Shown here piece by piece: positions 16,154 to 52,467 of a stretch of 64,000 nt of DNA. Positions within the stretch are counted from its first letter, which is position 1. Every line of letters begins with the position of its first letter. Origin of the DNA: Chaetoderma sp. LZ-2023a (Eukaryota > Mollusca > Caudofoveata > Chaetodermatida > Chaetodermatidae); contig CM067369.1 in NCBI GenBank assembly GCA_034401795.1, positions 138,644,496 to 138,708,495 of the forward strand, read 5' to 3'. A model generated the notes under the pieces. That model had not been told where the DNA came from. It did not search any database and saw only the letters and a list, made by a program, of their open reading frames with translations. A program made the position numbers and the translations under genes.

Positions 16154-16204
16154 ATACGGACCCGGCCTCTCCACCCCACAGAGGCTCGGTCTTCAGGCTC
16201 TTAA

Positions 16205-16436: not shown

Positions 16437-16576
16437 AATTTCTGGCAATGTGAACTGGTTTATCCGCTGTAATATTTTTCTAATAAGATTCTGGGACTAA
16501 ATTTACTTGTATTTAAGAGAAGCAGCTTTTAAAGAGTCTTGTCTTAACTAATCGGCCCACCAATTTTGATCTATTT

Positions 16577-19659: not shown

Positions 19660-19887
19660 CACGATTTGATCGCTGGCTTAATGGAAGAGAAAGGAAAATC
19701 ATCACAGGGGCAGGTTGTATTAATCTAGAATTAAAACATTCGTGCCGTAATGACTACTTGAAATTTCCTTAAATTGACACATTGTTTTAAAATGGTAGCT
19801 ATTGTTGGAGTCGCTCCGTTACCCGTTAACTTTTAAATCTTATCCGGGTACTCGGTTAATTTCTCTTGCAACTCGGTTCCTTCCAAG

Positions 19888-20085
19888 ATGGATGCGCCCG
19901 TTACCAAGATGGCGGCGTCCTTGATTAATGTTTTGTTTTGGCTTGGCGTGTCTACGCACTCTGTTTTAATCCGATCATTAGCTCTCACTTCACTGTCGAT
20001 GGTATTTGTAGCGATCAGTCTTATTTTCTTGGCTGTTTTAACGTTAGTTAATTATCAAGTCGTGTTTATTAAATTTTCACTCTAA
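19888..20085 (+). CDS. Small upstream open frame of B4 (65 aa)
   Basis: Starts MDAPVTKMAASLINVLFWLG and has a long hydrophobic stretch (FVAISLIFLAVLTLV), membrane-like. The B5 counterpart at 52149 shares the start MDAPVAKMG and the same hydrophobic pattern. The position corresponds to the 68-residue frame of family A. No known family; it could be a leader peptide or a first exon. Confidence 0.4.
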   Translation: MDAPVTKMAASLINVLFWLGVSTHSVLIRSLALTSLSMVFVAISLIFLAVLTLVNYQVVFIKFSL

Positions 20086-20180
20086 AAATTTTCAAATATT
20101 TCCTGCCTAAAACTTGATTATCATTAATTTGAGAGAAAGTTAATGTTTTTAAGTAATTTTAAATTACAATCAAGTAAATT

Positions 20181-22130: not shown

Positions 22131-22189
22131 CATGGGGGACGGTCCTGATGGGTTTCCGGCGAGACCCGTTCCGGTGGCGCCAGGAATGC

Positions 22190-23460
22190 AGGTAGTCGAG
22201 AATCTTCACCCAAGCGAATTAATGTCTTATCGCTCAATATCGATCGCAAGCTGTGTGCAGATTCCTGCCATTGGAGGCAGACTTCAGCTTTTCTCAAACC
22301 AGTGGGAACAGGTCATGCAAGATTGTTTCGTCTGTCATTGGCTAAGAAACAGCTACGAACCGGACTGGCTCATCAGTCAATCGTTAGTTCGGTTAACATC
22401 GACTCCAATATGGATTGTGAATCTAGAGAAATCAGAATTGACTCCATCCCAGGAGTTTGTGTATCTGGGAATATTTTTCAATCTCAGGGACGGTGTATCT
22501 TTTCCAGCGGAGAGCAGAGGCAAGAGTTTGATTGCAGTACTGGAGCCAGTTTCTCTAGGAGCCTATCTGACGGTTTGTCAATTTCTCAGAATACTGGGTT
22601 TACTAGTGAGACGGTGGTTCCTTATGCGGCACTCAGACGCAGGCCGATTCAGATGTACTTAATGTCATTCTGGCCTCAGATAATGGATCCGTTGTCTCTG
22701 AGGATTCCAGTAAAAGAACCGTTGATGTTCCATATTCAGTGGTGGTTATCGGAACAGAATCTCCTACGAGGTGTTCCTCTACAACCTCCTCGGCCGCAGA
22801 TGTCCATCTTTACAGATGCATCAACGAAAGGTTGGGGAGCAATACTGGACAATCTCAGTGTCTGGGGAATGGGATCAGACCAATGTGCAAAAACACATAA
22901 ATGTTCTCGAATTATTAGCGGTGGCATTAGCACTTCGAAAATTTGAGAACTTAATCCGAGACAACGTTGTCCTAGTAAGGACAGACAATCCACAGTGGTG
23001 TCTTATTTGAACCGCCAAGGCGGGACGAGATCACCAGAGTTGTGCATGATGATATGGAACCTTCTGCTGTGGTGCCAAGAGAGGAATATTATTCTTCGGG
23101 CAGCGCACATTCCAGGAAGATTGAACATCCTAGCAGATGCTCTCAGTCGAAGGACGGTTTGTCGTCCGACAGAATGGAAGCTCTACCAGTCGGTAGCGGA
23201 GGTTCTTTTCAAACATTGGGGCAAGCCAAATGTGGATCTATTTGCAATGAAAAAAAATGCAAAGATGGTCACATACGTGTCACCGATCCAGGACCCGCTA
23301 GCTCTAGCAGTAGACGCACTGGCGATAAGTTGGAAGGGAATGTACGTGTATGCGTATTCTTCAACAATTCTCATCCCAAAAGTTCTGGCAAAGATAAGAT
23401 AGGGCATATGTCTAGTACTACTGATCGCCCCTCATTGGCCAGGCCGATAGTGGTTTACAG
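22190..23460 (+). pseudogene. RT/RNase H region of B4, decayed
   Basis: Recognisable pieces of DIRS RT and RNase H: LEKSELTPSQEFVYLG, IFTDASTKGWGAIL, NRQGGTRSPELCMMIW, HIPGRLNILADALSRR and the DIRS domain NVDLFAMKKNAK. It is incomplete and interrupted in several places. Confidence 0.75.
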
Positions 23461-23469
23461 ATCTGCTGG

Positions 23470-24560
23470 ACCTTCTGGTCCGCAATCCAATCCCTCTTCC
23501 AGACAGAAGGGATCTGATTTTTCAGAACAAAGGTCTGTATCTTCACGACAGACTGGAGATGTTCCAATTGACTGCATGGATGTTGCCAAGCAGCGAGCAA
23601 TTAAGGGTGGCTTTTCTGAGCAAGGAGCAAAATTTGTCGTTTCAGCCAGAAGAGGGTCAACCACCAAGACATATAATTATAGAATCAACAAATTTGCAAG
23701 TGGTGTAAGGGAAGAGATATTAATCCCTTTTCTGCATCTGTACAACACGTAGCAGATTTTCTGTCATTTATACGAGGTTGACAAACTTGTACCTTCAACC
23801 CTAGCAGCATATACGTCTGCATTAACTTCAGTAGTTCCCTGTCTGGCCACTGTAGGAGTGGCGAACGACACTTTAAATGAAGTTATTAAAGGAATAAGCA
23901 ATTTGCGACCCAGACAGCCAATTCCTATCCCAGCGTAGAATCTATCTCTTGGTCTACAGGTTTTAGGGCATGCTCCCTTTGAACCAATTAGATCTATAGA
24001 TATTAAACTCTTAACTATTAAGTTTTCTTGGTTGCATCGGCGAGAAGGAGAAGCAAAATCTATGAGCTTTCTGCCGAACAAGACTGTTTTGTCGTTATAG
24101 GTCAAGGTTTAAGACTATTACCACATCTCTGTTTCCTGGCAAAGAATCAGTCACTTAAATATCGAGGACAGCCGATCAATTTGCCAAGTTTAATTAGGCA
24201 TGACCCAAACTTCTGCTTGGTGTCCTGTCAGATGTCTGAAAATGTATAAGAAACGTACTGAGGAGTGGAGAGATGACCCGAAATCTCTGTGGTTACATGT
24301 ATGTCTCAAAGCTCCTCATTTGCGCGCCTTGAAAGATACCATTTCTCGTTGGATAGTCGATGCTATTCATATGTTGCACAAAATCGCTACAGGAAAGCAG
24401 ATTGATTGTGCGAATGCCCATCAGGTCCGAGCACTAGCAGCATCATCGGGCCTTTATACGGGTGTCTCTTTAGAGGAGGTGATGTCTGTAGCACAATGGC
24501 ATGCCGAATCGTAATTCACCGATTTCTACCTTCGCGATACCGCCAGCACACTTAATCCGG
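23470..24560 (+). pseudogene. Tyrosine recombinase region of B4, decayed
   Basis: Retains the core-binding start (FSEQGAKFVVSARRGSTTKT), ISRWIVDAIHMLHKIATGKQ and the His-x-x-Arg region AHQVRALAASSGLYTG, followed by MSVAQWHAES. Interrupted in several places. Confidence 0.75.
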
Positions 24561-26535: not shown

Positions 26536-26664
26536 TGTATCTAGACAAATGTGTTAATGGACACAGTCCTATTAAAACCAGTAATTGACACCCAGCTTTA
26601 ATCTTGAAGAAGGTGGTTATGAATTTTATTGGGTCGTATTTTGTGGTGGCATCTGTCAGCAAAT

Positions 26665-27580
26665 CTGTGTCCATGCCATATCTCAAAAGAATTTTAATCT
26701 ACGTTTGAATTTTTTGTTTCAGTGAACATATTAGGTAGAGACAATATGGCGTGATTTTGTTTCAGCAAGATCTGTCCATATGAGATTTATGCCCCCCCTC
26801 CCCTCCCCCCCCCCCCACACCCCAACCCCCCCCCCCCCTACCACCCCCCGAAATGCCTAAAATGTGGCAACAATTTTGTGTCCATGCCATATCTCAAAAA
26901 GTGTTTAGTCTACATTTGAAATTTTTGTTTCAGCGAATACATTATATAGAGACGAAGTGTCATGTTTTTGTTTCAGTGAGATCCGCCCATATTTGTGAGA
27001 GTTGGTCCCCCTGAAATCTTTAAAATAAAAATATTAGGTAGAGGAGGCGATGTGTCCTAATTTTGTCTCGGTGAGACCTGTCCAAATTTGTGAGCGTTAT
27101 CTCCCCTAAAATGCTTAAAATGTGTCCAAAATTTTGTGTCCGGGCCATATCGCAAAGGATTGTAATCTATGTTTGAAATTTTTGTTTCAGCGAATACATG
27201 ACATAGAAACCAAGTGTCATATTTTTGTTTCGGTGAGATCCGCCCATATTTGTGAGAGTTGTCCCCCCCCCCCCCCCCTGAAATCCTTAAAATATGTCAA
27301 AATTTTGTGTAATTATCTCAAGAAGCTTTTAATCTACATTTAACATTTTTATTCAGTGGACATAGTACATAGAGACGAAGTGTCATGACTGATTCTGTGA
27401 GATCCATCCATATTTGTGAGAGTTATCTCCCCTGAAATGTTTAAAATGGGTAAAAAATTTCGTGTCCATGCCATATCTTAAAAGTTATTCCCCCTAAGAA
27501 GATGTAAATAAAATCTAATGGCCGGCCAGATCTCGGGGAGTTTTGAAACTACATTTGAAATTCCTTTTCCAGGGGACATA
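26665..27580. repeat. Tandem array of ~150-165-bp T repeat with C-runs
   Basis: About five to six units, each with GTCCATGCCATATCTCAAAA, a CTACATTTGAAATTTTTG-like stretch, GAGACGAAGTGTCATG, TGAGATCCGCCCATATTTGTG and TTATCTCCCCTGAAAT. Two units carry long C-runs at the TCTCCCC position (26791-26850 and 27265-27280). The array is cut by the insertion of the large transposon and resumes at 41949. Confidence 0.7.
26791..26850. repeat. Poly-C / C-rich tract
   Basis: Runs of up to fourteen C interrupted by T, A or AA, about 60 bp long. It lies within a T-repeat unit and presumably expanded from its CTCCCC motif. It could form G-quadruplex / i-motif structures. Confidence 0.8.
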
Positions 27581-27588
27581 TATACACC

Positions 27589-28613
27589 CAGGGCTGCGCG
27601 ATATACCGATACCATATTTAAAACCGATATACCGCACTGACAGTTTCATAACCGATTATAAAAAATAAATATCGAAAAACCGAATATGAACATATTTTCG
27701 GTTTTTCGTATCAGGATTGTTAAAAATAAAAGATACTAACGAGTATGAAAAGCGTAATGAATAATAATGGCCAGACTTTCCATTAAGCTACATTCGGGGC
27801 AACTAATAATTGAACGTGGCCCCAATTGCGCATATTGTGTACTCCATGTAACTCGCTGTGGCTGGCCGACAGCAACAACACCAGATAAATTTGCAATATA
27901 AAACACAATACTAACGCGGGAATTTGTCATTGAAATTTGTATCGGGGGAAACATTTCTAAACAACGGCATCCATTTTATTTACGTCACCGGCTAATTAAC
28001 ATAATGCAAAGTCGTCCCAAAACTAAATCGCCCGAATGGATACAAAATCTCGCCAATAAATATAATGCTGAATACATTTTGCTGATTAGGATATAATTTT
28101 AAATAAAATTATTACTCAAACCGTTTTTAAAACGTTATCTTCTATACACAATATCATATTAACTTATGAAATTCGCATTCGCAATATTACAGTTAATATT
28201 TTCTTCAAGGCATGATTTCGTCCTCGGGCCGATTTGGAAATGAAAGAAGAAATGGAGATAATTACATCGTAATTAATTACAATCACGTGATTAGGCTATG
28301 TTTTTCGCAACCTGTTTTACTGATTTATGATTAATTTTGACAAAATAAACGATGTTTATTTAACTGTGCTTAATATTTAGGCCGTCTAATTAATAATTTC
28401 ACTCCCGCGTTGATGTATATTATAAGGTATATTAAGCTTTAAAGGCGTAAAACGTTACGACTGTATCAGGGTGTGAAAATACGTTATGTTTTCGTGCTAT
28501 TTTTTATCATTTAAATTTTTTGTTTCATGTCCATAAAACCGATATTCGGTTAAAACCAATATGAAAAGTCATATCGAAACCGATATGGCTGTAAGCCAAA
28601 CCGCGCAGCCCTA
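27589..28613. mobile_element. hAT-like MITE inserted in the end of the large transposon
   Basis: The ends CAGGGCTGCGCG and CGCGCAGCCCTA form a 12-bp inverted repeat with one mismatch. An exact 8-bp duplication, TATACACC, flanks it (27581-27588 and 28614-28621). An 8-bp duplication and a CAGGG end are typical of hAT. About 1.0 kb, AT-rich, with subterminal CCGATATACCG / CGATATCGG-like repeats at both ends; no transposase frame. The duplicated bases are the terminal nucleotides of the large transposon, so this insertion is younger than it. Confidence 0.85.
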
Positions 28614-28780
28614 TATACACCTAAAAAAAAGTAAGTTCCCCTCTAAATATGGGCTAATATTTTCCTAGATATAGGTCTGATTTTAATACAATTTCTCACA
28701 GGTCATTAGTTTGACTATAGCATCAATCAGTGAAAATGATTATCCCATCTGTATTTCTATGCATGAATGCGCATGCGCTA

Positions 28781-30124
28781 AATGCAAATTTGACCCATTT
28801 CAAAAATTCTTAAAACGGAACATGGATACAAATTGTATCCAGTGCCAAGAAAATCATAACCGATAGAGAGCAAAAAGCAACTTTTATCCAATAACATCAA
28901 TAATTCATTTCATAAACGATAAAGCATAAAACATTTTATTCAGAATTCCATCAAATCATAAACGATCATTTCAAACGGACAGTAAATCACAGATTTAACA
29001 GAGTTAATAACGTGTGTATCCACCATTCTGCTGAATCACGTTGCGGCACTGATTTCTCATAGAGTTGATGAGGCGGGTGACCCGATGTTGTGGTATAGCC
29101 ATCCACTCCTGTAACAACTAATACATGTCACCAAGAACGGTGTCGTCGGTCACTGTGATAAACTGGTCGCTTGAGCTGATCCCACAAATGCTCAAGGGGG
29201 TTAAGGTCTGGCGAGATGGATGGCCACACAATTCTCTGAATACCGTGATGATTAAAAAAAGTGTGGACGCGCATTGTCATCCATAAAGATGAATCCATCG
29301 TCGATGGCTCCAGCATATGGTAGGACATGTGGTTCCAAGACCTCCGCAACATAGCGATTGGTATTAAGGCTACCTTCGATCAGAACCAAATCGGTCTTTT
29401 CTCCTCCACAAATTCCAGCCCACATCATCACGCTGCCTCCTCCAAATGCGGTCACCGGTTGTACACAACAGTCCGAAAACCGTTCTCCACGGCGACGCCA
29501 TACACGTTTCCTTCCATCAATGTGACGGAGACAGACGCGCACCTCATCACTAAACAACACATTAGCCCATTGCTGTCTTGTTCACTGTTCATGTTCCCGT
29601 GTCCATTCAAGACGCGTTTCCCTGTGGCACAATAGCAGGGCGGATCTCTTAACCAGACGACGGGCACGCAATCCAGCTTTATGAAGGCGATTTCTTACAG
29701 TTTGGTTCTTTAACCATCCTGGCCCCGACTCCAGCAGCTGCGTGCAGCTGATCTCTTATCGCCCTCGCTGTGGATTGCCTTCTTCGCAGTGTTAGGTTGG
29801 TGATGAGACGATCTTGAGCTGGTGTTGTTGCTGTCGGCCAGCCACTTCTTCGTCGATCCTGCACCTCAACAGTCCGCTGGAATTTATCCCACAGTTTTTG
29901 GATGGCATTTGGACTAACGCCCATTCTATGAGCCACCTGTTTCACTGGAAAATTGGCCTCTAAAACACCAATGGCAATTGCTGTATTCTGGTTCGTTAAC
30001 CGTGGCATTCTTAAATCACAAAACTATGCATTTGCCTTTACACGTTAGTGCCAGAATGACTGATATTCCTCCAGCAAAGGCTATGTTTGATTTCAGAATT
30101 TTTGAAATGGAACAAATTTGCATT
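28781..30124 (-). mobile_element. Tc1-like transposon, decayed
   Basis: About 1.34 kb with imperfect inverted ends AATGCAAATTTGACCCATTT and AAATGGAACAAATTTGCATT, placed inside the left inverted repeat of the large transposon. TA stands on the left; the right copy reads TG, so the duplication is no longer exact. It encodes a Tc1-type transposase on the minus strand with several frame interruptions. Confidence 0.82.
29110..30008 (-). pseudogene. Tc1-like transposase, frame-disrupted
   Basis: The N-terminal paired helix-turn-helix region is intact from the ATG at 30008: MPRLTNQNTAIAIGVLEANF, RMGVSPNAIQKLWDKFQRT and RRSGWPTATTPAQDRLI. The DDE core follows in other frames: LFSDEVRVCLRHIDGRKRVW (first Asp), FIFMDDNARPH (second Asp) and WPSISPDLNPLEHLWDQLKR (the catalytic Glu lies in NPLEHLW). 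About 300 codons in total, slightly under the usual ~340, with about three frame changes. As a plain Tc1 copy it is non-functional. Confidence 0.82.
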
Positions 30125-30855
30125 TGGGTCATTCCATCTCAAATCAGCAAGTGGTCCCCACCTGACCATCTCAGAATTGCTTAATATTTTGTTTACAGCT
30201 ACCTACACATATTTTAGGCGATTATACAAAATTATAGAGTCCAGTTTTACATACTTTTCAAAATATTGCAGTCTGAATAACATAGGGGTGGCGAAAATGT
30301 TACAGGGTTTTCGCACATGTTATTTTTTCCACAACTTTCAAGTCCTAATATATCCCTTATTATACATGCTAGCCATCTGAAATTTTTACCATTAATTCAC
30401 TGCTATGTGTCTTACTGGAAATTGCAAAGAAATGCCAAATACCTTTATAAATCTTTATTTAATACTTTACCAAAAATGGCAAAATAATCTTCGACATTGT
30501 GCATTTTGCAACTTTTATCTGAGAATAAAACACAAACTGTCTGCACTTAGGGCTTGCCTTTTCACATGCTTTATGTATCCATTTAGATGAACATGCACAG
30601 GTGTTTGTAACCTCCTAAGTTCATAACTTTTAGAGATATGACTTGTTGAAAACAAGAAAATCTTCACGCATGTCAAGTTTCAGCTGCAAATATTATTAAG
30701 AGGGACAGGTGGCACACACTATTGCTATATATCAAAAGAAAGCATATGGTCTAGGCTTTAATTTGATACCTAGAACAACTTGCCCCTATGATTATTTCAG
30801 TGTGATAATAATTTAACAAAATAGGGTTATTTTGTCAATTCACGAATGGTTATCA

Positions 30856-31214
30856 TCCTAGACTTAATTCTGTAAAATAAATTTAAATATTACTTTAAAA
30901 TGTTTAAGAAACAGGGTGATATATCTAATGAAACATGTTGCTAATATATCTTATTTTTACATTAATATTTATATTTAATACATGTAGATACGCACACAGT
31001 GTATATGAACATAATATAGCTTAGCAATTATGTACATATCTACTGACTAGAAAATTTCAAGAAATAAAATTTTACCTAATTTTCTTGTGCCAGTGTTATA
31101 TTTTCATACCTGCAGCCCACTTACCAAGGAAACTCAATTTAAATCAAACTATTAACTGTCTGGTCATTAATATTTTCTTGTTTGTTTTTCAGATTGAGTA
31201 ACTATGGCATCTAA
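30856..31214. other. 5' region of the large transposon
   Basis: AT-rich DNA between the inverted repeat and the transposase frame. A strong acceptor-like tract, TTTTCTTGTTTGTTTTTCAG, ends at 31192, so the transposase may have a 5' intron. Confidence 0.4.
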
Positions 31215-32731
31215 GATGGCTGCCTGTACTATTGGCATGAACTGACTTACTGCAAAAAGACAGGCTTTGTGAAAATATGTGATTTATCACTTCAAGATAA
31301 AGACCTTATGTTTAAACGTTGCGACTTACCACAGAATATGACAGTAACTCAACAAAGTACAGTATGCTTGCATCATAAAAAGTTGTACCTAGACAAATAT
31401 GAATTCTTAGAAAAGAAGTGCTGTGATCCATATTCTGTTCATGGTCAGCCAGTCAGAGGAAACTTACGTACCTTGAATACCACTGCAACTGAGAAACTAA
31501 ATAAAACCACAGGGAATAACATTAAACCCGGTCAAAAGTTATGTCCAAAGTGTATGATAAAATTTTCATTGGATACTAAACCTGTTGCAGAACTTACAGA
31601 TGATGATAATTTAGAAAGTGATTCATATGACACAGATCAGAGTGATGGCAAGCATGCAGGTCAACTAAATACCAGCATAACCTCACTTGGATGCTCTCCC
31701 CTCAAAATAAAGGTCAGCCAGAGAGATATGGTTGGTTATGGTAAACGCAAACTAGCCCAAGCAGAGACTGCCATGAAATATCAGCTTGCCAAAAATTTGA
31801 AAGTAGAGCCAGATGATTTGGTGAAGAAGACACCAGTTTGTCAGCAATGTACAGATCTTAAAGAACTTATTTTATGTATGAAGCAAAAATGTAGTGTGTC
31901 AAATAGACAAAAGCAAATACAAATACTGACAATGGCACCTCCAAGCTGGTCACTTGAGAAGACTGCTACAGAATTTAATGTGACAAAGTATGTGGTTAGG
32001 AAAGCCAGAGAGTTAAAAAAACAACATGGCATTCTTGCGGAACCCTCAACCAAGAAGGGAAATGAATTAACAGAAGATGTCAAGAAACAAGTGACCGTGT
32101 TTTATGAAAGTGATGAATACTCTCGTTTGTGCCCTGGAAAAAAGGACTACCTTTCAATAAAAATTGATGCAAATCGTATACACAAACAAAAGCGCCTGCT
32201 CTTAGCAAATTTGAATGAACTGTACGTAGCATTTAAACAAAAGTATGAATCCTGCAAAATAGGGTTTTCCAAATTCTGTGAACTGCGCCCACCATGGTGT
32301 ATAACAGTTGCGGCCAGAGGCACCCATTCTGTGTGCATCTGTGAGATCCACCAAAACGTGAAACTTTTGTTAGCTGCAGTTGGTGAACTAAAACTGTAAT
32401 ACACTTCATTAATGTCGCTTGTTGTTTGTGACATTCATTCCAGAGACTGTATGATACACCGCTGTAGCCAGTGCCCAGGAAAAGATGCCCTGCATACACA
32501 TATAACAGAGCTTATCCACAATCAAATGGAAATGGATGAAGATGATGTCATTAATTTTAAACAGTGGCGGCATACTGATCGGACTTCCATTGTTGCTAGA
32601 CAGGAATGTGTGCCAGAGTTCATCAATCTGCTGTGTGACCAACTTGATAATCTGACAACCCACCATTACATTGCGAAAGCACAAGCTGCATACCTTTCTA
32701 GCTGCAAAGAGACATTACATGAACATGATAA
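31215..32731 (+). pseudogene. Transposase of the large transposon, N-terminal half
   Basis: Open from about 31215 (first ATG of the frame at 31275), reading ELTYCKKTGFVKICDLSLQD and DLMFKRCDLPQNMTVTQQST, a Cys-rich N-terminal part with CLHHKKLYL, CCDPYSVHG and LCPKCMIKF (possible zinc-binding). The middle contains a helix-turn-helix-like APPSWSLEKTATEFNVTKY followed by VVRKARELKKQHGI. One in-frame stop at 32397-32399 interrupts it; the same frame continues with CDIHSRDCMIHRCSQCPGKD until DIRS copy A3 cuts it at 32731. I know this protein type only as 'hypothetical' proteins of invertebrate genomes. Confidence 0.7.
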
Positions 32732-32940
32732 TTTCACATCAAGAGTATACTTACCTCCCTAATACTTTTGATATTGCTAAATATCGGCTTTCACTCAATA
32801 AACACTCAGATTAAAACAGTTAGGTGCCCCTACTGGGCAGGGAGTCAGAGCGTAGTCTGGCGGATGCCAGCCCCACCACCGCGCATGCGCAGACTAGCAC
32901 TTCCTCTTTGCTAATTTATTGGCAGAGAGTCTACACATGT
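32732..32940. repeat. Left inverted terminal repeat of A3
   Basis: Begins TTTCACATCAAGAGTATACT. It differs from A2 at the ninth base region (CACATC versus CACTTC), a difference repeated in its own ICR. CGCGCATGCGCA is at 32880-32891. Confidence 0.88.
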
Positions 32941-33015
32941 TTTTGTGCTAGAGCTTTTCTTTACTCAATTCATAGTCTTTTTGTGTGAATTTGGAAGTGA
33001 TTATCCCTGATAAAG

Positions 33016-33222
33016 ATGGCAGAAAGGATGACTTCGCCAGAGGAAGGCCCAGGACCTTTAAATCAGGTGACTTCTAGTAAAATTAGCGAGTTTTTCTCCC
33101 GGTGTAATGTGTTTCCGGGACTCGCGTTTACCGTGATAAGCGCCTTGTTTAGTTGGTTTATTTCAACTAGGTGCTATATAATACTAATCTCTCTTTGTGT
33201 TTATGTCCACAGGTCTGTGTGA
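33016..33222 (+). CDS. Small upstream open frame of A3 (68 aa)
   Basis: Starts MAERMTSPEEGPGPLNQVTS and keeps the same length as the A2 frame. The hydrophobic part is GLAFTVISALFSWFISTRC. Conservation of length and frame between copies argues for selection or very recent divergence. Confidence 0.42.
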   Translation: MAERMTSPEEGPGPLNQVTSSKISEFFSRCNVFPGLAFTVISALFSWFISTRCYIILISLCVYVHRSV

Positions 33223-33859
33223 CGATATGTAATGGACATCACATCAGCAGAGGGTTTGTTTCTCTCCACCATGGTTCCATTTCCTACTAATACTGTTAGG
33301 TTATCTAACCAAAAATTTTATGTCCAGTGAGTCGGAGGCCTAGTATAAAGGTCTTCTCACTTTGCCCTCTTGATCCAATTCCTTCCCCTATAGGTGGAGA
33401 GAGTTAAGAGGCGTTCAGTTGGTGGAGTGCTCCAGTTCATCACGTTGGATGGTTTGTCTATACAAAGTGTCAGGTATCTAATTATTGATATGAGGTGATG
33501 TTAATTATTTAGAGAGGAAAGGGAGATAATTAACAGTATTTGCCATTGTTATCAGTATATATCTGATGGTTGTGTAGTCGAAATGTCCATTCTGCACATG
33601 TTCTGGTTAGAGATACAATTCGTCCTTGCACTTGGATGTTTGTTGGGGATCGATTTTTTCCTGTCATAGGATTAATGACGTCATAATCAGCCTTGCTCTT
33701 TATTAACAATTAAAGTTTGTCCAAAGCTGGTTTTCTGATGAATATTGATCTTTATGATCATTTCCTTCTCTTGAGTTGGTTGAGTTTCTGAGCTTAACTA
33801 GATTGCTCATACTCCTCGTCCTTTGCCCTGTTTCAGAGACCTGGTTGTGCGTCCGGTGG

Positions 33860-35691
33860 ACGGTTTTTGAAGGACAAGTTTGTGCCTCATCTCTGCTATC
33901 AGTGTAGCCCCTGTGGTCCCTTGATTAATTGCGAGATATGTAAGCACTGGGGGGGCGAGCTAATGTCCGAATTCTTGTGCTTACAGGCGAAGGACAAGGT
34001 GGTGGAGGAGGAGAAGAAGCAGAAAAGAGAGGGTGTGAGTAAGAAGGGTAAGAGGAAGGCCTCATCCGCGGTGGACATGGAGGCCTTCCGGACCGAGATG
34101 TTGGGAGAGATGAGGAGGACAATAAAGGATTTGGTTCCAGAGTTGCTTCGTGGCATGCTTCCTGGACCAAATCCTTTGCTGTCCTCATCATCTGCTTCGG
34201 AGCAGGTAATCCCCACCTCTGAATCACCTTTCCTTAGTACGCTTCCGTTGTTCGAAGATTCAGAGGTGGCCTCATTAGAGGGGGCATTCCACGACCCTGG
34301 CAGCAGGCTTAGTGCCGCGCCGAGGGGCCGTGGACGGTTGTCGCTGGAACCCGCGGGCTGCTTATCAGTCCAGGGGTATCCGCACGCCGCGGGTGCCAGT
34401 ACCTCCTATGGCACCTTCCCTGGCCAGTCCGGGTTAGCTCTCTTTGCTGACCCAGAGTCTAATCTGTCTGGCCAGGAGGAAGAGGATTACCTGTTGGGGT
34501 CGCCGTCTGAGGACGTGGCCATGGATTATGACGTCTGTGCACCCCTCGCGGGGAATACAGGCGACTTATTCCACGGTTCTACTCACGCAGGAGTAGAATC
34601 CACGGTTCAGACTGTGGCCCTGGGCGCTGCTGAGGGCCAGCGTTACCGCATACCTCGGCTTGCCGAGAGTGTCGCTGGTGCTGGCCGGGGCCGTGGTGGG
34701 GCGGTATGTGCCCCGCGCTCTACCACGGCGCCTGCTCCTGGTCAAGCCAGTGAGATTAGCATGCCGGTGTTGTCAGGCCCGCATGTTCTCCCTGGCTTGC
34801 CAGGGGTATCAGCGTATCCGCCGTCAAGTTAACGCTATGCCTTCTCTGCCGCTGGCAGAGCATGTCGTTGACATGTTCGAGGCGGCGGAGACGTCCATTA
34901 AGTCGAGTGGACGTCTCGCGAAGGCCCCGCGCGAGGTGGCCAGGCGTTGCCGCATCGTGGCCCTGGATTACCAGCGGTACGGTGTGGTACCTAAGCCGAG
35001 CGTGGATGACCGCGCGGCTTTGGGTGAGGATGTGCGGCCAGTCTCCCGTTCTGACACGGGAGTCTTGTGTTCGAACGCGTTGCGTTCAGCAAATACCGCG
35101 TTGCGTGATGCGGAGGAGAGTGGGAGGGCTTCGATTGCCGCTCTGTCCCACGTCTCCCAGCTGTTACAAGGGGTAGTAACAGCATCCGCATCGCACCAGC
35201 CAAGTCCGGTCACAGTCCAGCGAGCCATCCAGGATGGTATCAACCTGGCTCTGGACTGTATGACTCGGGCGGTGACCAGGAGTGTCCGGGCAAGGCGCAC
35301 ATTTGCCTTGGACAATCTGTGCCCGTCCCAGGACCTGTACAATAGGCTACTGCGTACGCCTACGACAGGTCCTGGTCTCTTTGGAGGTGAGGGATGTAGA
35401 CACCTCCAGGAGATGGTTACTCTGGTAAATAACCAGAGAGCGCTGCGCGAGCAGTTTGAGGTGCTTCGTCGTGCTAACGTTCGCGCCGCACCCCCTGCGT
35501 ATCGTCCCCTGCAGGCTCGAGGTGGTGGTGGCCAGGTCAGAGGCCAACCACCATCGCAGCGTCGGCCTCAGCCGCGTGCGATTCGGCCAGCAGCGAGGGG
35601 GGCGCAGTCAGCCAGGCAGCCGCCCGCGCACCGAGGTGCGCGCGGTGCTGGTCGTGGCGCGCGAGGATCTGGGCGTGGTAATCGTTCCTGA
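33860..35691 (+). pseudogene. Gag-like region of A3
   Basis: The same product type as the A2 gag: cysteine cluster (HLCYQCSPCG, CEICKHWGG), Lys/Glu-rich stretch, MPSLPLAEHVVDMFEAAE region and Arg-Gly tail (GARGAGRGARGSGRG). It is slightly shorter than in A2 and broken. Confidence 0.75.
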
Positions 35692-35699
35692 TGGGACGG

Positions 35700-37826
35700 T
35701 TACCGCGGTGAGAACCGCTCCAGTGTTTCTGGCAAAGGAGACAGTGCCGCTCTTGCACTCCTTATGTCCACCTCTATCCCTAGGTGGACCGGTGGGAGGC
35801 CGGCTAGCCGACCACATGCAAGAGTGGGAACGGTTAACTCAGGACCGTTTAGTCTTGCGATGGCTTTCAGTCGGGTATCATCCCGATTGGATGACAGGCC
35901 CGCCATCGCGACTGTCTCTAGTGCCGATCTGGACTCCAAATCCGAGAGATCCAGAGCAAAGGTTGTGTATCGAGGAGGAAATAAATTCCCTCATACAAAA
36001 AGGAGCTATTCAGCCGGCACAAAGGTGTCCGGGCTTCTATTCAACCCTGTTCTTAGTAACAAAAAACACCAGAGGGTGGAGACCAATTCTCAACCTCAAG
36101 CCATTGAACAAGTTCATAGAGACGCTCAGTTTCAAGATGGAGACTGTGCGCTCTCGGTGTTGGCGGGGTTAGAGAGGGGAATGTGGACAGCGTCAATAGA
36201 TTTGAAGGACGCTTATTTCCACATCCCCATGCACAGAAGTTTCCGTCGCTTCCTGAGATTTGCATTCCAGGGCAGACAGTGGGAATTCAGGGTGTTACCC
36301 TTCGGAATTTCCACGGCTCCTCGGGTTTTCACCCGTGTGGTTCTTGCGATCACCGCATACCTCCGCAGGAGAAGCATATAGCAGTCCACACGTACATAGA
36401 CGACTGGCTGTTGAAAGCGCACACCCAGGAAAGTTTATCGGCCAGTCTGGAGATTGTTTTGAAGACTCTCACAGACTTGGGCTGGATGATCAATTTCCCA
36501 AAATCAGAGCTGACTCCATCCCAGAAGTTTGTTTACCTGGGGATGTTCTTCGATCTAGAGACAGGATATGTTTTTCCTACTCAGGAGAGAGTTCAGAAAC
36601 TCATCTCATTAATTCAGTCAGTGTGCGACAGTCGTCATGTCCTGGCACGGGTTTACTTGAGAATGCTGGGGTTGATGGTTTCATTGGAACCAGTCATTCC
36701 TCAGGCCGCCTTACGCAGGCGGCCGATCCAGTTATTTCTCATGACACAATGGACCCAGAGTACAGGTTCGCTGGACTCGAACGTGTCAGTGTTGGCGCCT
36801 CTGATTCATCACCTGCAATGGTGGTTGGACACGGAGAATCTCTTGGTGGGGGTTATGCTAACCCCTCCCCACCCTCAGGTGACTGTGTATACAGATGCAT
36901 CGATGGAGGGCTGGGGAGCTTGCCTGGAAGAATCCACGATATCAGGGCTTTGGGATCTGGAACAGTCAAAGGAACATATAAATCTACTGGAGCTAAGAGC
37001 AGTAGTCCTGGGCCTGGAACATTTCTTACAGAAAGTTCAGGGCAAGATTGTTCTTATTCGTTCAGACAACTCAACATTTGTGACTTACATAAACCGCCAG
37101 GGCGGAACGAAGTCGCCCAGTCTCTGTATGATGACATGGAGACTGCTTTGTTGGTGCCTGGATCACCAGATTACCTTGAAAGCAGTTCATATTCCGGGAA
37201 GGTTAAATCTGCTAGCAGACTCATTGAGCCGAAGGATGAGTGTTTTACCCACGGAATGGCAACTAAATCAATGTGTGGCGGATCGTCTGTTCGACCATTG
37301 GGGGAAACCCAACATCGATTTGTTCGCAACGAAGAAGAATGCGAAGATAATGACGTACGTCTCTCCGATTCCGGATCCAAGCGCTTTCGCAACAGATGCG
37401 TTAGCTATCAGCTGGGGGAGAATGTATGCATACGCATTCCCTCCAGCAATCCTGATTCCAAAAATTCTTCAGAAAATCAGACAGGAGGAATGCCAAGTGT
37501 TTCTGATCGCCCCGGATTGGCCAAGCCGATCATGGTATACGGATCTGCTGGACCTTCTGGTCTGCAATCCGGTTCCTCTGCCTCTGATGGACGACTTTAT
37601 CTTCCAGGGCAAGGCCCTTCACAACAATCCGTCAATGTTCAGATTGACTGCGTGGATGTTGTCAAGGAATCTAGAATTAAGGAGGGCTTTTCTGAGCAAG
37701 CAGCCATGTTTATGGCCAAAGCCAGGAGGGGGTCAACCTCCAGAGCATATAATTATAAAATCAACAGATTTGCAGAACGGTGCTCAAAAAGATGTATTGA
37801 TCCAATGGATTCATCTATTCAGGTAG
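35700..37826 (+). pseudogene. RT/RNase H region of A3
   Basis: Contains all RT and RNase H boxes seen in A2 (DLKDAYFHIP, YIDDWLLKA, TDASMEGWGACLE, RSDNSTFVTYINRQGG, HIPGRLNLLADSLSR) and the DIRS domain NIDLFATKKNAK. It is broken, but otherwise nearly the same sequence as A2. Confidence 0.82.
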
Positions 37827-38660
37827 TAGCTGATTTCCTCTGTCACCTGTATGATGCCTATAGCCTCAAGCCTAACTCTATTGCTGGTTATAAGTCAGCT
37901 TTAATGTCTGTTATTCCTTGCTTGGCTAAGAGGGGAAGTGATGAAGTAAATACATTAAATGTATTAATTAAAGGCATGGGCAATCTAAGACCAAGGAATC
38001 CCCCTGTGATTCCGTCTTGGAGTTTATCGCTAGTGCTTCAAGTACTAGGTGATAAGCCTTTTGAACCACTTAGTTCCATTTCTATGAAACTATAAACACT
38101 GAAGACTGTGTTTTTAATTGCTGCGGCCTCGGCTAGGCGTAGAAGTGAAATTCATGCCTTATCAGCCGAGGATGACCGTTTTGTGGTTTCAGGGGAAGGC
38201 CTTAAGCTGCTACCTAGGATTAATTTCTTGGCTAACAATCAGTCGTTGAAATATCCAGGTCAACCTATTGTTTTGCCTGCTTTAACTAGATATGATCCTA
38301 ATTCTAAAGCATGGTGTCCCGTCCGGGCGCTTCTCCGGTACAAACAACGTACATCGGAGTGGCGCACCGACCAGTCGGCGTTATGGCTGTCATATATTGA
38401 ACCCCATGGCAGGGCTTCTAAGGACACCATTTCCAGGTGGATTGTAGAAAGTATTCAGTTTTGTCATAAATCCGCCACCGGGAAGCAGGTTGACGTGGCC
38501 AAGGCTCACAGTGTCTGCGGCGTAGTGACATCCACTGCCCTATTTAATCCCTGTGGATGATATTATGTCGGTGGCTCAGTGGCACTGTGAGTCAAGTTTT
38601 ACAGACCATTATCTCCGTGACACCTCTAATCCTCTCGCCTTGTCGATTTTGAAAAAATAA
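37610..38660 (+). pseudogene. Tyrosine recombinase region of A3
   Basis: The core-binding part (FSEQAAMFMAKARRGSTSRA) and catalytic boxes ASARRRSEIHALSAE, ISRWIVESIQFCHKSATGKQ, SVAQWHCESSF and DHYLRD are all recognisable. The region is broken. It overlaps RT/RNase H by about 200 nt. Confidence 0.8.
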
Positions 38661-39000
38661 CTAGGTTTATATTTTTGATGAGGTTTCCTCATTGCTTATA
38701 TATTTCACAATTAATTTATGGAAACAACCACTTTTTTGGGACTGCATCATTCTTCAACAATGGGAAGATGATGTCAGCAGCCTTTTCAACAAGGTCAGTC
38801 TTGTGCATGGGTTGTCCATTGTTGATTGTCTTGTCACGTTACCCGTTATTAATATGATGGTGGTTTTGTGTATTTATGTGGTTCATTGTTGAGAGTATAC
38901 GAAAAGGGAGCTTTTTCGTGTGTGTTCTGTAGTACATGGCACTTGTACGTAGAGAGCGTATAGGACATTGAGGTCATTCGACTCTTCCTCCCAGGAAGGA

Positions 39001-39065
39001 GGGGGGGGGGGGGGAGCGCATATGACATTCGGTCATCTCTCATACATCGGTGGTGTTATCCGATG
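39001..39065 (+). promoter_or_regulatory. G-run and hairpin in 3' region of A3
   Basis: Fourteen G residues (eight in A2), then AGCGCAT and the stem CATCGG / CCGATG (39045-39050 with 39060-39065). Confidence 0.5.
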
Positions 39066-39196
39066 GCTAGTCAAATCCTGACTGTTTTTTCATACAGTTT
39101 CAGAAGTTTAAGTGCCTTAAACGCAGAAAAGCGTATAGGGATGAGCTGGTCTTTTGACCTCGCCTCCCTCCCGCCGAATTCACTGTCGAATTCTGG

Positions 39197-39297
39197 CAAT
39201 ATCAAAAGTATTAGGGAGGTAAGTATACTCTTGATGTGAAATAAACGAAATCAAGGATTTCTTTTTTCACGAGAGAGTTGATACTTACCTCCCTAGA
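39197..39297. repeat. Internal complementary region of A3
   Basis: CTTGATGTGAAATAAACGAA then ATCAAGGATTTC: copies of this element's own left (CACATCAAG) and right (CCTTGATTTCGTTT) ends back to back, differing from A2 at exactly the bases where the ends differ. Confidence 0.88.
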
Positions 39298-39344
39298 TAC
39301 GGACCCGGCCTCTCCACCCCACAGAGGCTCGGTCTTCAGGCTCT

Positions 39345-39578
39345 TAATAGTTGCATGTGTATCAGCCAATAAATTAGTCAGAGGAAGTGCTAGTCTGCGC
39401 ATGCGCGGTGGTGGGGCTGGCATCCGCCAGACTACGCTCTGACTCCCTGCCCAGTAGGGGCACCTAACTGTTTTAATCTGAGTGTTTATTGAGTGAAAGC
39501 CGATATTTAGCAATATCAAAAGTATTAGGGAGGTAAGTATCAACTCTCTCGTGAAAAAAGAAATCCTTGATTTCGTTT
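39345..39578. repeat. Right inverted terminal repeat of A3
   Basis: Complement of 32732-32940 with the tail AAATCCTTGATTTCGTTT. TGCGCATGCGCG is at 39396-39407. Confidence 0.88.
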
Positions 39579-40621
39579 ATACAATGTTAGTATTGTTAGA
39601 CTTTGCAGAGAATTACTCCTTTATAATTCAGGATTCCATTCAAGGATTTTATTGGGATAACAAGCAAGCAACGTTGCATCCGTTTGCTGTTTATTACTCC
39701 AAAGACGGCATGTTGTGTAAGCCTTTATCTCTGTGTGTAATCAGTGATTGTATGCAACATGACACAGTGAGTGTGTATGCGTTCATTAATGTTGTGGTAA
39801 AATACCTTAAAGAAATGCTGCCTAATGTTAAGCATGTAAAGTACTTTAGTGATGGATGCGGAGGACAATATAAAAACTATAAGAATTTCCGCAACCTGTG
39901 TCTACATTCCCAAGAATGGTTTATCAGCTGAGTGGCATTTCTTTGCAACAAGCCACGGTAAGTGTTTGTGATGGAATTGGAGGAACAGTTAAGAGACTTG
40001 CTGCAAGAAGCAGCCTGCAACACACCACAGACAATCATATTGTTACACCGGTAGAATTATATGAGTGGTCACAATCTAATGTTCATGGTATCACTTTCTT
40101 TTATGTATCACTCACTGATGTGGAACAGCATCGCCCTAGTCTACTAAAGCGTTTCGCAAATGCAGGTATGATTCCTGGAACAAGGAGCCATCACTGCTTC
40201 ATTCCCACCAGTACTAGTGAGTTACGCATTAGTAGAATATCTGCTGATGAAAACGGTGCCAGTACGAAAGTGAGCGTCTCAGGCACAGAAACATCTCTAA
40301 ACTTTCAACCAGGACAGTATGTAGCCACGGTTTATGATCAGAACTGGTATCTTGGAAACATTGTAGAGATATTCGGAGGAGCATCAAGATCTTCTGATTA
40401 ACTTCATGCAGCCAAAAGGTCCAGCAAGATCATTTTCTTGGCCACGAAGACGAGATGAATGTGCTGTTCCAATTGATCATATTCTCTGTGCAGTGACAAA
40501 CCTTACCACAATAACTGGTCGTCAGTATAAGTTGGATCAGGACACAATGACACAAATTACAGTGTTTCAGAACATTTTCTGCTACCAAGTTTCTGTCGTA
40601 AATAACTTCTGTTACATGTAA
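39579..40621 (+). pseudogene. Transposase of the large transposon, C-terminal half
   Basis: Resumes after A3 with LLDFAENYSFIIQDSIQGFY and ATLHPFAVYY, where the Asp of DFAENY is a candidate first catalytic residue. KYFSDGCGGQYKNYKNF follows (candidate second Asp), then CDGIGGTVKRLAARSSLQ, SNVHGITFFYVS and a C-terminal part with GQYVATVYDQNWYLGNIVE and ARSFSWPRRRDECAVPIDHI. About three small frame changes, near 39915, 39960 and 40380, break it. The frame ends at 40621. Asp/Asp/Asp-or-Glu spacing fits a DDE-type transposase, but the assignment of residues is inference. Confidence 0.7.
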
Positions 40622-41054
40622 GCAACTGTACTATGCTAGTATGCTGACTACCTCCTTGTACATAGTTAGCAACAGAAAGAGAAAGCCTAAACATGATTGA
40701 TATACAAGATACAATTACATATAATTTAGTGAAGTTACCTTAATGCAGCTTTAATCCTGAGCACACTAGCATTAACATTCTCTTGTTTTTGGCATTAACA
40801 GATTTGGAAAACAATTTCCTTAGATGATGATGATGATGTTTAAGGCAGCAGAATCTTCTGAGAAAGTTGTTTACAAAAGTGGCATCAATTTAACCTTGTT
40901 TTAAATTGGAAATTTTTGAAAATTTTGACATTAGTGCTAAAGATTTATATGGAAGCAGTGTTACATACTTATTACTTTAAATTTGTTCTTGAATATTCAA
41001 TCCACTTTGAAGTATTTCCGAAGTAATTACTGAGTTATGCATAATTAATCAATC
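40622..41054. other. 3' region of the large transposon
   Basis: AT-rich and non-coding, with GATGATGATGATG at 40825-40837. It leads into the right inverted repeat. Confidence 0.4.
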
Positions 41055-41948
41055 GCGAATTGACAAAATAACCCTATTTTGTTAAATTAATATCACACTG
41101 AAATAATCATAGGGGCAAGTTGTTCTAGGTATCAAATTAAAGCTTCGACCATATGCTTTCTTTTGATATATAGCAATAGTGTGTGCTACCTGTCCCTCTT
41201 AATAATATTTGCAGCTGAAACTTGACATGCGTGAAGATTTTCTTGTGTTCAACAAGTCATATCTCTAAAAGTGATAAACTTAGGAGGTTACAAACACCTG
41301 TGCATGTTCATCTATATGGATACATAAAGCATGTGAAAAGGCAAGCCCTAACTGCAGGCAGTGTGTGTTTTATTCTCAGATAAAAGTTGCAAAATGCACA
41401 ATGTCGAAGATTATTTTGCCATTTTTGGTAAAGTATTAAATAAAGATTTATAAAGGTATTTGGCATTTCTTTGCATTTTCCAGTAAGACACGTGGCAGTG
41501 AATTAATGATAAAAATTTCAGATGGCTAGCATGTATAATAAGGGAGATATTAGGACTTGAAAGTTGCATAACAAATAACATGTGCGAAAATCCTGTAACA
41601 TTTTCGCCACCCCTATGTTACTCAAACTGCAATATTTTGAAAAGTATGTAAAACTGGACTCTATAATTTTGTATAATCACCTAAAATATGTGTAGGTAGC
41701 TGTAAACAAAATATTAAGCAATTCTGAGATGGTCAGGTGGGGACATTTCTGGAAATTTGCTGATTTGACACGGAATGACCCATTTAGTAGATGCTCAGTC
41801 AGGCATGACTAGGCGCATGAGGGAATCCATTTCACATTTTGGTGCTATAGTGTAGCTAGTGATCTGTGAGAAATTTCATTGCAATCAGTTATATATCTTA
41901 GAAAATATTAGGGCATATTTAGGGGGACTTACTTTTTTTAGGTGTATA
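41055..41948. repeat. Right inverted repeat of the large transposon
   Basis: Complement of the left repeat, uninterrupted, starting at GAATTGACAAAATAACCC inside and ending GGTGTATA at the outer edge. Confidence 0.85.
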
Positions 41949-42061
41949 TATTAGGTAGAGACGAAGTGTCATGATTTTGTTTCGGTGAGATCTGTCCATA
42001 TTTGGCAGTGTTATCCTCCCTGAAAAGATTAAAATTCATCAAAGACGGTTGTATTAATCCC
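41949..42061. repeat. Rest of the interrupted T-repeat unit
   Basis: TATTAGGTAGAGACGAAGTG, ATCTGTCCATATTTGGCAG and GTTATCCTCCCTGAAAAG continue the unit broken at 27580 by the large transposon. Confidence 0.7.
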
Positions 42062-45153: not shown

Positions 45154-46955
45154 CTTGACCTGGCTAGAAATTGATCGCCCGCTCATTTTCTGACTTCTTT
45201 CATGACAAGATCGAGGATATCCGTACACAATTGCAACAGTCAAATGATTCAGCTGCGTTTCTCTCCAATCAAACCATGTTCACTCATAAAACTTTTGACA
45301 ATTTCACTTCATTTTCTGAAAGCGATATAATGGCTCTTTTAAAGGAATTAAAACCAACATTTTGTACTCTCGATCCCATTCCTACGAAAATCGTGCTTGA
45401 AAACATTGACATCTTGCTCCCAACAATAACTATGCTGGTTAATTCCAGCTTAGAATCTGGCCTCATGCCAATGACATTTAAGCGGGCAGTTGTCAAACCA
45501 CTGTTGAAGAAGTCTGGCCTAGACGAAGATACTCTAAAAAACTATAGACCTGTCTCGAACCTGCCTTTTATGTCTAAGCTAATCGAGAAGGCGGTGTTCA
45601 AAAGATTATCAGCTCATGTAAGTGACAATGCGTTATATGAACCGTTTCAGTCAGCGTACCGTCAGCGTCATAGCACGGAGACTGCTCTATTATGCGTCCT
45701 CAATAATATTCGAGAGGCGGTAGACAGAGGTAATGTGTCATTGTTGCTACTCCTTGACCTCAGTGCCGCATTTGATACGATAGACCATCATTTACTTATG
45801 TCACAATTGAGTAGTGTATTTGGTTTACAAGGCACTGTCTGGAACTGGTTTCACTCATATTTATCCGATAGACACCAGTCTGTATATATTAACGGCACAC
45901 TTTCAGAACCAGTCAACCTCGTGTGTGGTGTGCCTCAGGGGTCTATTCTAGGTCCGGTGTTATTTACACTCTACACACAACCACTTGGATCGGTTATTGA
46001 TCAGCACAACATTATGCGTCACTTCTATGCTGATGACACACAGCTTGTCATTAGTTTTGAACCTTCAACATGTACTGCACGCTTAGCAACAAGTCAGCTC
46101 AATATGTGTTATATAGACATTAAAGAGTGGATGACTACAAACATGCTGAAACTTAACGATGAAAAGACTGAAGCTCTGTTAGTCGGGCCAGCAAACCGAC
46201 GTGCTAAGACTGACCTATGTGACATCACAGCTGGAAATAGTCAAATAAAGCTGTCAACTGTCGTAAAGGATCTTGGTGTATACTTAGACAATGAACTGAC
46301 TATGGATAAACATGTTAGTTACATCTGCAAAGTCTGCTATTTTCAATTGCGCAATATCGGCAGCATCAGGCGCTATATCACAAAAGAGGCCGCGATCATG
46401 CTAGTACGAGCATTGATAACGTCGCGCCTGGATTATTGTAATAGCCTCCTGATTGGCGCCTCAAAAGAACTTATTCAGCGACTTCAGGTGGTCCAGAACA
46501 CTGCAGCGAGAATCATATCCCTGTGTGCCAAGCGAGAACACATTACTCCGGTCCTACATGATTTGCACTGGCTCCCCATTGTGCAAAGAATAACTTTTAA
46601 GACACTATGTCTGACATACCAATGTGTATCTGGCACAGCACCAGCCTATCTCTCTGACCTTGTACAACCTTACATTCCTGGTCGCTCTCTCAGATCTGCA
46701 AATCTAAATCTACTAAAAGTACCTAAGGTCAACTCTAAAACATATGGCCATAAAACTTTCTCTTTCACTGCAGCTACCGAATGGAATAACTTACCAAATG
46801 AAATTAGAAACTCATCAACTTTAGAAATCTTTAAATCCAATCTTAAATTCTATTTATTTCAAATAGCATATCCATAGAATACTTACGCGCGTTAGCGCTT
46901 AGAGCATGCAGTTGCATGGATTAAGCGCTCTAAAAATGTACTATTATTATTATTA
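45154..46955 (+). mobile_element. LINE (L2/CR1-like), 5'-truncated
   Basis: A non-LTR retrotransposon of which only the RT and C-terminal part remain. The 3' end carries AAGCGCTCTAAAAATGTA followed by a short (ATT)n tail at 46941-46955, typical of L2/CR1-like LINEs. Target duplications TTGACCTGG (45145-45153) and TTGACCAGG (46956-46964) differ at one base. The insertion lies in the right arm of MITE M3. The apurinic endonuclease part is absent because of 5' truncation. Confidence 0.85.
45171..46877 (+). CDS. LINE reverse transcriptase (endonuclease missing)
   Basis: An open frame of 568 residues, still intact. It starts inside the linker before RT (SFSDFFHDKIEDIRTQL). RT boxes: NYRPVSNLPFMSKLIEKAVF, FQSAYRQRHSTETALL, LLLDLSAAFDTIDHHLL (first Asp), CGVPQGSILGPVLFTLYTQP and FYADDTQLVISF (catalytic Asp pair in YADD). 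The thumb and C-terminal part follows with VKDLGVYLDNELTMDKHV and LDYCNSLLIGASKELIQRLQ, ending with EWNNLPNEIRNSSTLEIFK. The first methionine is not the original start, because the protein is cut by 5' truncation. The Jockey-like superfamily is clear; L2 or CR1 clade is a judgement from the 3' tail and motifs. Confidence 0.9.
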   Translation: MIARSFSDFFHDKIEDIRTQLQQSNDSAAFLSNQTMFTHKTFDNFTSFSESDIMALLKELKPTFCTLDPIPTKIVLENIDILLPTITMLVNSSLESGLMPMTFKRAVVKPLLKKSGLDEDTLKNYRPVSNLPFMSKLIEKAVFKRLSAHVSDNALYEPFQSAYRQRHSTETALLCVLNNIREAVDRGNVSLLLLLDLSAAFDTIDHHLLMSQLSSVFGLQGTVWNWFHSYLSDRHQSVYINGTLSEPVNLVCGVPQGSILGPVLFTLYTQPLGSVIDQHNIMRHFYADDTQLVISFEPSTCTARLATSQLNMCYIDIKEWMTTNMLKLNDEKTEALLVGPANRRAKTDLCDITAGNSQIKLSTVVKDLGVYLDNELTMDKHVSYICKVCYFQLRNIGSIRRYITKEAAIMLVRALITSRLDYCNSLLIGASKELIQRLQVVQNTAARIISLCAKREHITPVLHDLHWLPIVQRITFKTLCLTYQCVSGTAPAYLSDLVQPYIPGRSLRSANLNLLKVPKVNSKTYGHKTFSFTAATEWNNLPNEIRNSSTLEIFKSNLKFYLFQIAYP

Positions 46956-51797: not shown

Positions 51798-52148
51798 CAT
51801 AGCCCCAGGTACCGAGTCAATTCCCAATCACAGTCAGATTCATCTATTTTGCGCTCTTGAAAAGTCGCATGTTTTATTAGCTCAAAACTTTGCAATTTTA
51901 AGCAGATTTAAGCGTGTTATTCGTGAATCATCGTTGGCTTCATGGAGGAAAAAGGAAAATTATCACAGGGGCGGGTTGTATTAACCTAAAATTGATACAT
52001 TCGTGCCATAATGACTGTTTGAAATTTCCTTAAATTGGCACATTATTCTAAAATGGTAGCCATTGTTGGAGTCGCTCTGTACCCGTTAACTCTTTAGTTT
52101 TAATCCGGGTACTCGGTTAATTTCTCTTGTGACTCGGTTCCTTCTAAG

Positions 52149-52370
52149 ATGGATGCGCCCGTAGCCAAGATGGGGGTGCCCATGATTAATGTTTCGCTTT
52201 GGCTTGGCGTGTCTATGCACTCTGTTTTACGCCGATTTTTAGCTCACGCTTCATTGTCGAGGGTGTTTGTAGCGATCAGCGTTTATTTCTTGGCTGTATT
52301 AACGTTAGTTAACTTCCAAGTTGCGTTTATTAATTTTCACTCAAAAAAGTTTCAAATTTTTCCTGCCTAA
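52149..52370 (+). CDS. Small upstream open frame of B5 (73 aa)
   Basis: Starts MDAPVAKMGVPMINVSLWLG and has FVAISVYFLAVLTLVNFQVA, a membrane-like segment. Aligns along its length with the B4 frame at 19888. Confidence 0.4.
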   Translation: MDAPVAKMGVPMINVSLWLGVSMHSVLRRFLAHASLSRVFVAISVYFLAVLTLVNFQVAFINFHSKKFQIFPA

Positions 52371-52467
52371 AGGCTTGATTATCATTAATTTAAGAGAAAG
52401 TTAATGTTTCTAAGTAATTCTACTTTACAATCAAGTCAATTGTGCGTATTGCTCGTCGTCGTTTGTC

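Follow-up and report, generated by a model that had tools for sequence, protein, structure and literature searches.

A nest of inserted elements occupies positions 27581-41948 of a 64,000-base stretch of contig CM067369.1 (the window) from the caudofoveate mollusc Chaetoderma sp. LZ-2023a (assembly GCA_034401795.1). The window contains no N, and its self-comparison places members of one repeat family, the T repeat, on both flanks of the nest. The last unit of the T-repeat array is split by a DNA transposon, which measures about 5.1 kb when its inserts are subtracted (approximately 5,141 bp by coordinates) and carries inverted arms of approximately 0.9 kb each. Inside this large transposon are three further elements: a hAT-like one sits at the left terminus, a Tc1-like one interrupts the left arm, and the transposase gene contains A3, a DIRS1-like retrotransposon. 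All four inserted elements and both T-repeat flanks were confirmed in the sequence (Table 1), and the three elements with coding capacity (the large transposon, the Tc1-like element and A3) are now broken.

A sequence-only reading of this DNA had already described a T-repeat unit split by a transposon and the three further insertions, and each of these was borne out. Of the checks it had proposed, self-comparison and alignment of the arms gave the expected picture, in that the inverted arms align and the right arm is uninterrupted. Its size of about 5.2 kb for the large transposon was nearly right, and its element limits were almost exact. Its statement that every boundary can be read was too strong, in that the Tc1-like element lacks a TA copy on the right and the duplication made by the large transposon may be either TA or ATAT.

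Four insertions in one T-repeat unit

The T-repeat flanks, when joined (GGGGACATATTAGGTAGAG, also given as GGGGACATATTAGGTAG), align with T-repeat unit 1 (26634-26800) without a gap at the join, and 104 of 142 columns match overall. Matches with the other three units compared are 145/237 columns (55 of them gap columns), 129/192 and 117/165. Joining the flanks restores the phase of the T repeat, and the transposase frame is likewise restored across its own insert. The left end of the large transposon reads TATATACACC at 27579-27588 and is followed directly by the hAT-like element, while the right end reads GGTGTATATA, with its last base at 41950. The flanks can be written as GGGGACA-TA-TATACACC on the left and GGTGTATA-TA-TTAGG on the right. 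A TA duplication places the element at 27581-41948 and an ATAT duplication at 27582-41947, and both fit the empty site. The entry of this long-armed transposon, a candidate DDE/D type, into the last T-repeat unit can be read directly at the locus, together with its duplication of TA or ATAT.

The transposase gene of the large transposon is divided by A3 into two parts. The candidate catalytic residues are two aspartates (D), at 39599 and 39851 with 83 residues between them, and a glutamate (E) near 39930 that is preceded by a frameshift; two of the frameshifts lie close together near 39900-39960. The DDE/D type is a candidate assignment that comes from our own reading of these motifs.

The hAT-like element is flanked by exact 8-bp copies of TATACACC (27581-27588 and 28614-28621), which are the transposon's own terminal bases. 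Because the T-repeat flank adjoins the outer copy, the hAT-like element came later than the transposon at this locus, and it entered the left terminus of the transposon with duplication of the last 8 bases there. An 8-bp duplication is the rule for hAT elements. The short inverted ends (CAGGG/TAGGG, the second end being read reversed) agree at 11 of 12 terminal bases, and the element holds no open frame of at least 80 codons. It had been called a miniature inverted-repeat transposable element, for which 1,025 bp is long. Read on the opposite strand, twenty-seven of its bases (27858-27884) match 29819-29845 in the Tc1-like transposase gene exactly, and the longest same-strand match between the two is 11 bases; the 27-base match is perhaps filler DNA copied in repair.

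The joined flanks of A3 read GATAATACAATG, in which the transposase frame is open again and a target duplication is absent. A3 thus integrated at a 2-3 bp AT core of the transposase gene without duplicating it, and the circle step of this integration would follow the published DIRS model. The inverted repeats of A3 (32747-32907 and 39380-39540) are exact over 161 nt, 97.8% identical over 180 columns and match at 195 of 210 positions in a longer alignment. In a sister copy within the window, A2 (9391-16437), three open frames are 714, 746 and 989 codons long; each of them is split in A3, and the two copies differ at 482 of 6,814 aligned bases and by 30 indels. The reverse transcriptase family RVT_1 was matched by A2 (E value 3.4e-22) and by two pieces of A3, one above the cut-off (2e-08) and the other below it (6.8e-06). 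The recombinase is a putative assignment based on the structure of the element and a below-cut-off family match. The alignment of A2 with A3 (32732-39579) is a mosaic, with approximately 86-92% likeness in its first 3.5 kb and approximately 94-98% in the rest, as if it were a product of template switching. In A2, the reverse transcriptase frame (12443-14683) and a second frame, probably that of the recombinase (12553-15522), are both open and overlap by more than 2 kb.

The sequence-only reading's assignment of the Tc1-like element is supported by its transposase, one piece of which matches DDE_3 at 30.7 bits (cut-off 28.6) and another at 14.6 bits, below the cut-off. Two pieces match Sleeping Beauty with E values of 1.5e-10 and 3.4e-05. 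The element appears Tc1-like by its protein, and its right edge is putative. It lies in the left arm and may have arrived either at this locus or within the source copy of the transposon.

Table 1. Features of the nest and its T-repeat flanks (positions in the window)
Feature	Position	Strand	Basis
T-repeat array, left part; last unit interrupted	26634-27578	+	self-comparison, join alignment
Left target duplication TA (alternative: ATAT at 27578-27581)	27579-27580	+	empty-site comparison with T-repeat unit 1
Large transposon left terminus TATACACC; doubles as left 8-bp duplication of hAT-like element	27581-27588	+	
hAT-like non-autonomous element, 1,025 bp; ends CAGGGCTGCGCG / TAGGGCTGCGCG	27589-28613	.	
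Right 8-bp duplication TATACACC; recreates transposon terminus on inner side	28614-28621	+	
Outer segment of left inverted arm; identity with right arm 75.6%	28614-28780	+	
Tc1-like element; minus-strand transposase, 3 frameshifts and 2 stops; TA left, TG right	28781-30124	-	
Inner segment of left inverted arm; identity with right arm about 96%	30126-30852	+	
Transposase gene upstream of A3; a single in-frame TAA (32397-32399)	31215-32732	+	
DIRS1-like retrotransposon A3, 6,848 bp, at AT core; three long frames broken relative to sister A2	32733-39580	+	
DIRS left inverted terminal repeat	32733-32926	+	
DIRS internal complementary region, complementary to the fused right and left ends; AAT junction	39187-39295	+	
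DIRS right inverted terminal repeat and extension	39362-39580	+	
Transposase gene downstream of A3; 3 frameshifts, D/D/E candidate residues	39581-40621	+	
Right inverted arm, uninterrupted	41046-41948	-	self-comparison
Right target duplication TA (alternative: ATAT at 41948-41951)	41949-41950	+	join alignment
T-repeat unit, resumed	41951-42036	+	join alignment

A step in arm identity at the Tc1-like element

Identity between the arms of the large transposon steps sharply at the Tc1-like element, a feature that the sequence-only reading had missed and that leaves room for a Tc1-like element carried in with the transposon. With gap columns excluded from the pair counts, the outer part of the arms, between TATACACC and the insertion point of the Tc1-like element, is identical at 124 of 164 aligned pairs (75.6%). 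Inward of the Tc1-like element, the first 40 columns hold 27 identical pairs among 31, and the columns after them 670 among 697 (96%); self-comparison gives the same 96% for 30154-30852 against 41046-41744. The difference between the inner segment (670/697) and the outer segment (counted for this comparison as 130/170) is highly significant (Fisher p = 3.6e-14). The similarity of the outer arms is not due to chance, since their local alignment beyond the first ~40 nt scores 100, and none of 1,000 shuffles scored above 36. A two-rate fit, from which the first 40 pairs were excluded, places the change point at pair 161 of 891 (2-logL range 160-198, or approximately 4% of the arm), and the Tc1-like element is inserted after pair 164. 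Along the outer arm, the outermost 47 pairs are 94% identical, as would be expected if the transposase needs them, and the identity is then 76%, 62% and 74%.

Expressed per arm, divergence is 14.8% in the outer segment and 2.0% in the inner one, where the two arms differ by 3.9%. The transposase gene provides a second clock, as it has one in-frame stop between segments totalling 777 stop-free codons. Decay was simulated in sets of 400 runs, with these 777 codons taken as open at insertion (approximately 9 codons of the last segment being off frame). New stops averaged 2.0 at 1.95% neutral change and 7.7 at 8%, and reached a mean of 11.4 at the upper limit of the simulation, 12%; the fraction of runs with one or no new stop was 0.40, 0.0025 and 0, respectively. 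The single stop observed fits 1-3% change per lineage. The simulation thus indicates a copy that is approximately 2% old per lineage and an outer divergence that is older, and the outer divergence was rejected as the age of the insertion because the transposase is too intact. The inner-arm divergence is the best estimate of the age of the transposon at this locus, and we infer that the larger outer-arm divergence predates the insertion.

Order of events in the nest

Taken as a whole, the nest is very probably an ordinary stack of transposition events, and nests of this kind are ordinary genome biology. Several results weigh against so straightforward an account. A Pfam scan of four pieces of the large transposon's transposase returned no match above the cut-off, and a comparison of one 116-residue piece with the PDB returned none at all. 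The DIRS recombinase matched only the integrase SAM-like N-terminus, and did so below the cut-off (17.7 bits in A2 against 22.3 required, and 14.5 in A3). The N-terminal piece of the Tc1 transposase found no transposase in the PDB and only a sub-cut-off helix-turn-helix match, and the TA duplication that is present on the left of the Tc1-like element is absent on its right, where TG is found; one point mutation could account for the TG. The step in arm identity at the Tc1-like element and the lesion load of that element sit badly with a simple late insertion. Furthermore, the evidence comes from one locus, with one copy of the large transposon in one individual.

The sequence-only reading had held the relative order to be clear throughout. 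That part of it which runs from the T repeat to the large transposon to the hAT-like element is firm; nesting dates the entry of the Tc1-like and DIRS elements into the lineage of the transposon and not into the locus, so only the order of the other three is fixed. The insertion of A3 likely followed that of the large transposon. For the Tc1-like element, the explanation nearest to the earlier order is that the outer arms of the transposon family had already diverged and that the Tc1-like element struck the boundary by chance after the transposon was in place, and we give this only a little less than an even chance. Long arms that are unlike or chimeric have been described in transposons such as Galileo (PMC3573991; this and the other papers cited here are drawn on in excerpt). 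Such a history requires a positional coincidence of approximately 4% and a Tc1 copy that was damaged beforehand or decays faster. The Tc1 transposase carries five lesions (three frameshifts and two stops) in ~1,003 nt, against four in ~2,550 nt of the large transposase, a difference that is not significant (one-sided p = 0.079; the lesion counts were made by eye on translated frames, and both lengths are estimates of the coding stretch).

The coincidence of the step with the Tc1-like element and the heavier damage to that element suggest, short of proof, that the source element already contained the Tc1-like element, which restricted conversion between the two arms. It is tentatively possible that the source copy carried the Tc1-like element within its left arm and that the composite later jumped into the T repeat. 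With similarly limited confidence, gene conversion may have kept the inner arms alike and halted at the Tc1-like element, leaving the outer left arm to drift except for the terminal recognition bases. The position of the change point within a few pairs of the insertion, the preserved identity of the outermost 47 pairs and the lesion counts all accord with this history, as does the decay of the transposase, which agrees with the inner and not the outer divergence. All of this is drawn from a single locus, and the Tc1-like element could have arrived already broken or the outer arms of the family could have been unlike from the start. Dead Tc1 copies are commonly mobilised in trans. If conversion between the arms had instead taken place after insertion and been halted by the Tc1-like element, the step would fall where it does, and the outer divergence would be the true age; at ~15% per arm, that age exceeds the highest simulated value, at which the transposase would already have far more stops than the one seen, and we regard this explanation as very improbable. 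A foreign left end could also have come to lie beside the element through chimerism between two transposon copies, or through a join made in the assembly at the Tc1-like element. The step and the missing TA on the right would both be accounted for in this way, and unlike arms do occur in Galileo chimeras (PMC3573991). We consider such an origin doubtful, since the T repeat resumes in phase and both flanks match here, whereas the Galileo chimeras described in that source lack matching duplications.

If the Tc1-like element did travel as a passenger in a composite that went on jumping, copies of the transposon elsewhere in the genome would share it at the same base, and the local order would hold no record of its arrival. 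It would then mark naturally the distance that gene conversion covers along transposon arms. Nests are used to order transposon activity, and the trap is to read entry into a lineage as entry into a locus. Arm identity can also step sharply inside one element, so that ages taken from the outer and inner arms here differ approximately sevenfold.

Neighbouring repeats and known systems

Outside the nest, the window holds a second repeated family, probably another DIRS family, in two copies (19669-24556 and 51930-56772) that are 79-90% alike in their four longest matches. A frame in one copy (54889-55671) matches RNase H just above the cut-off and a Dam-like family below it; the frame at 22149-22943 gives no match. 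A 569-codon open frame at 45168-46877 strongly matches the reverse transcriptase family RVT_1 (1.1e-31). An Rfam scan of the window returned no match.

The superfamily of the large transposon was sought by several routes. Three weak Pfam matches of the transposase pieces (E values 0.089 to 0.29) were taken as chance, and a single-sequence structure model of the 116-residue piece (mean predicted local distance difference test score 52.7) had an order of strands and helices reminiscent of an RNase H fold, a likeness too weak to use. A search for relatives covered three of the four transposase pieces in viral and prokaryote collections, and its misses therefore say little about eukaryotes: 39587-39928 gave 4 pattern matches in viral_contigs and 41 in genome_contigs, 39934-40398 gave 3 in viral_contigs, none of them confirmed, and 31215-32396 gave no pattern match in viral_contigs. 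A text search for the peptide DFAENY found no paper. TTAA is the target of Kolobok, and the KolobokP lineage is described with 3-5 bp duplications and with long terminal direct repeats (PMC9587614). The empty site ACATATTAGG lacks TTAA, which excludes a Kolobok or piggyBac TTAA duplication at this locus, and KolobokP was set aside because the arms here are inverted.

The candidates for the superfamily are Sola2 and AcademX, both likened to the element by description only. Sola2-type elements in amoebozoa have AT-rich 4-bp duplications that include ATAT (PMC3627910), which fits the ATAT reading here, although the duplication could instead be TA; those amoebozoan elements have ends of 12-21 bp, as opposed to arms of ~0.9 kb. 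AcademX duplicates 3 or 4 bp (PMC10045372), which would accommodate ATAT, and its nuclease family was unmatched in the four transposase pieces scanned. In the excerpted part of a bivalve survey, Sola1, Sola2 and Sola3 elements are listed and Academ is described as amplified, with a mean curated length of 5,565 bp (PMC10294476). By coding frames, that source has Sola and Academ apparently restricted to bivalves among molluscs, and DIRS mainly in bivalves and two gastropods.

In the length of its arms the large transposon resembles Galileo, a member of the P-element superfamily in Drosophila, which has long inverted arms that are unlike in some copies, and for which recombination and conversion have been proposed (PMC3573991). 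Galileo differs in having 7-bp flanks in place of TA or ATAT, and its chimeric copies are without matching duplications in that account. The hAT-like element has in common with hAT the 8-bp duplication and the short CAGGG/TAGGG ends, and it is hAT-like by these features, with no transposase of its own. The Tc1-like element shares with Tc1/mariner elements of the Sleeping Beauty kind a DDE_3 domain, inverted ends and a left TA, and differs from them in its right TG. DIRS1-like elements, those of molluscs included, have inverted terminal repeats and an internal complementary region (PMC3266345). Compared with five mollusc elements described in that paper, A3 is longer (6.8 kb versus 4.7-5.8 kb), its right end is ATA instead of ATT, and its sister A2 has a long frame overlap of a kind that the excerpt reports as absent from the molluscs surveyed. 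Four of the five mollusc elements match A3 in the ATT start and the AAT circular junction, and AcaDIRS and LgDIRS have in common with A3 the inverted terminal repeats, the internal complementary region and insertion with no duplication (PMC3266345).

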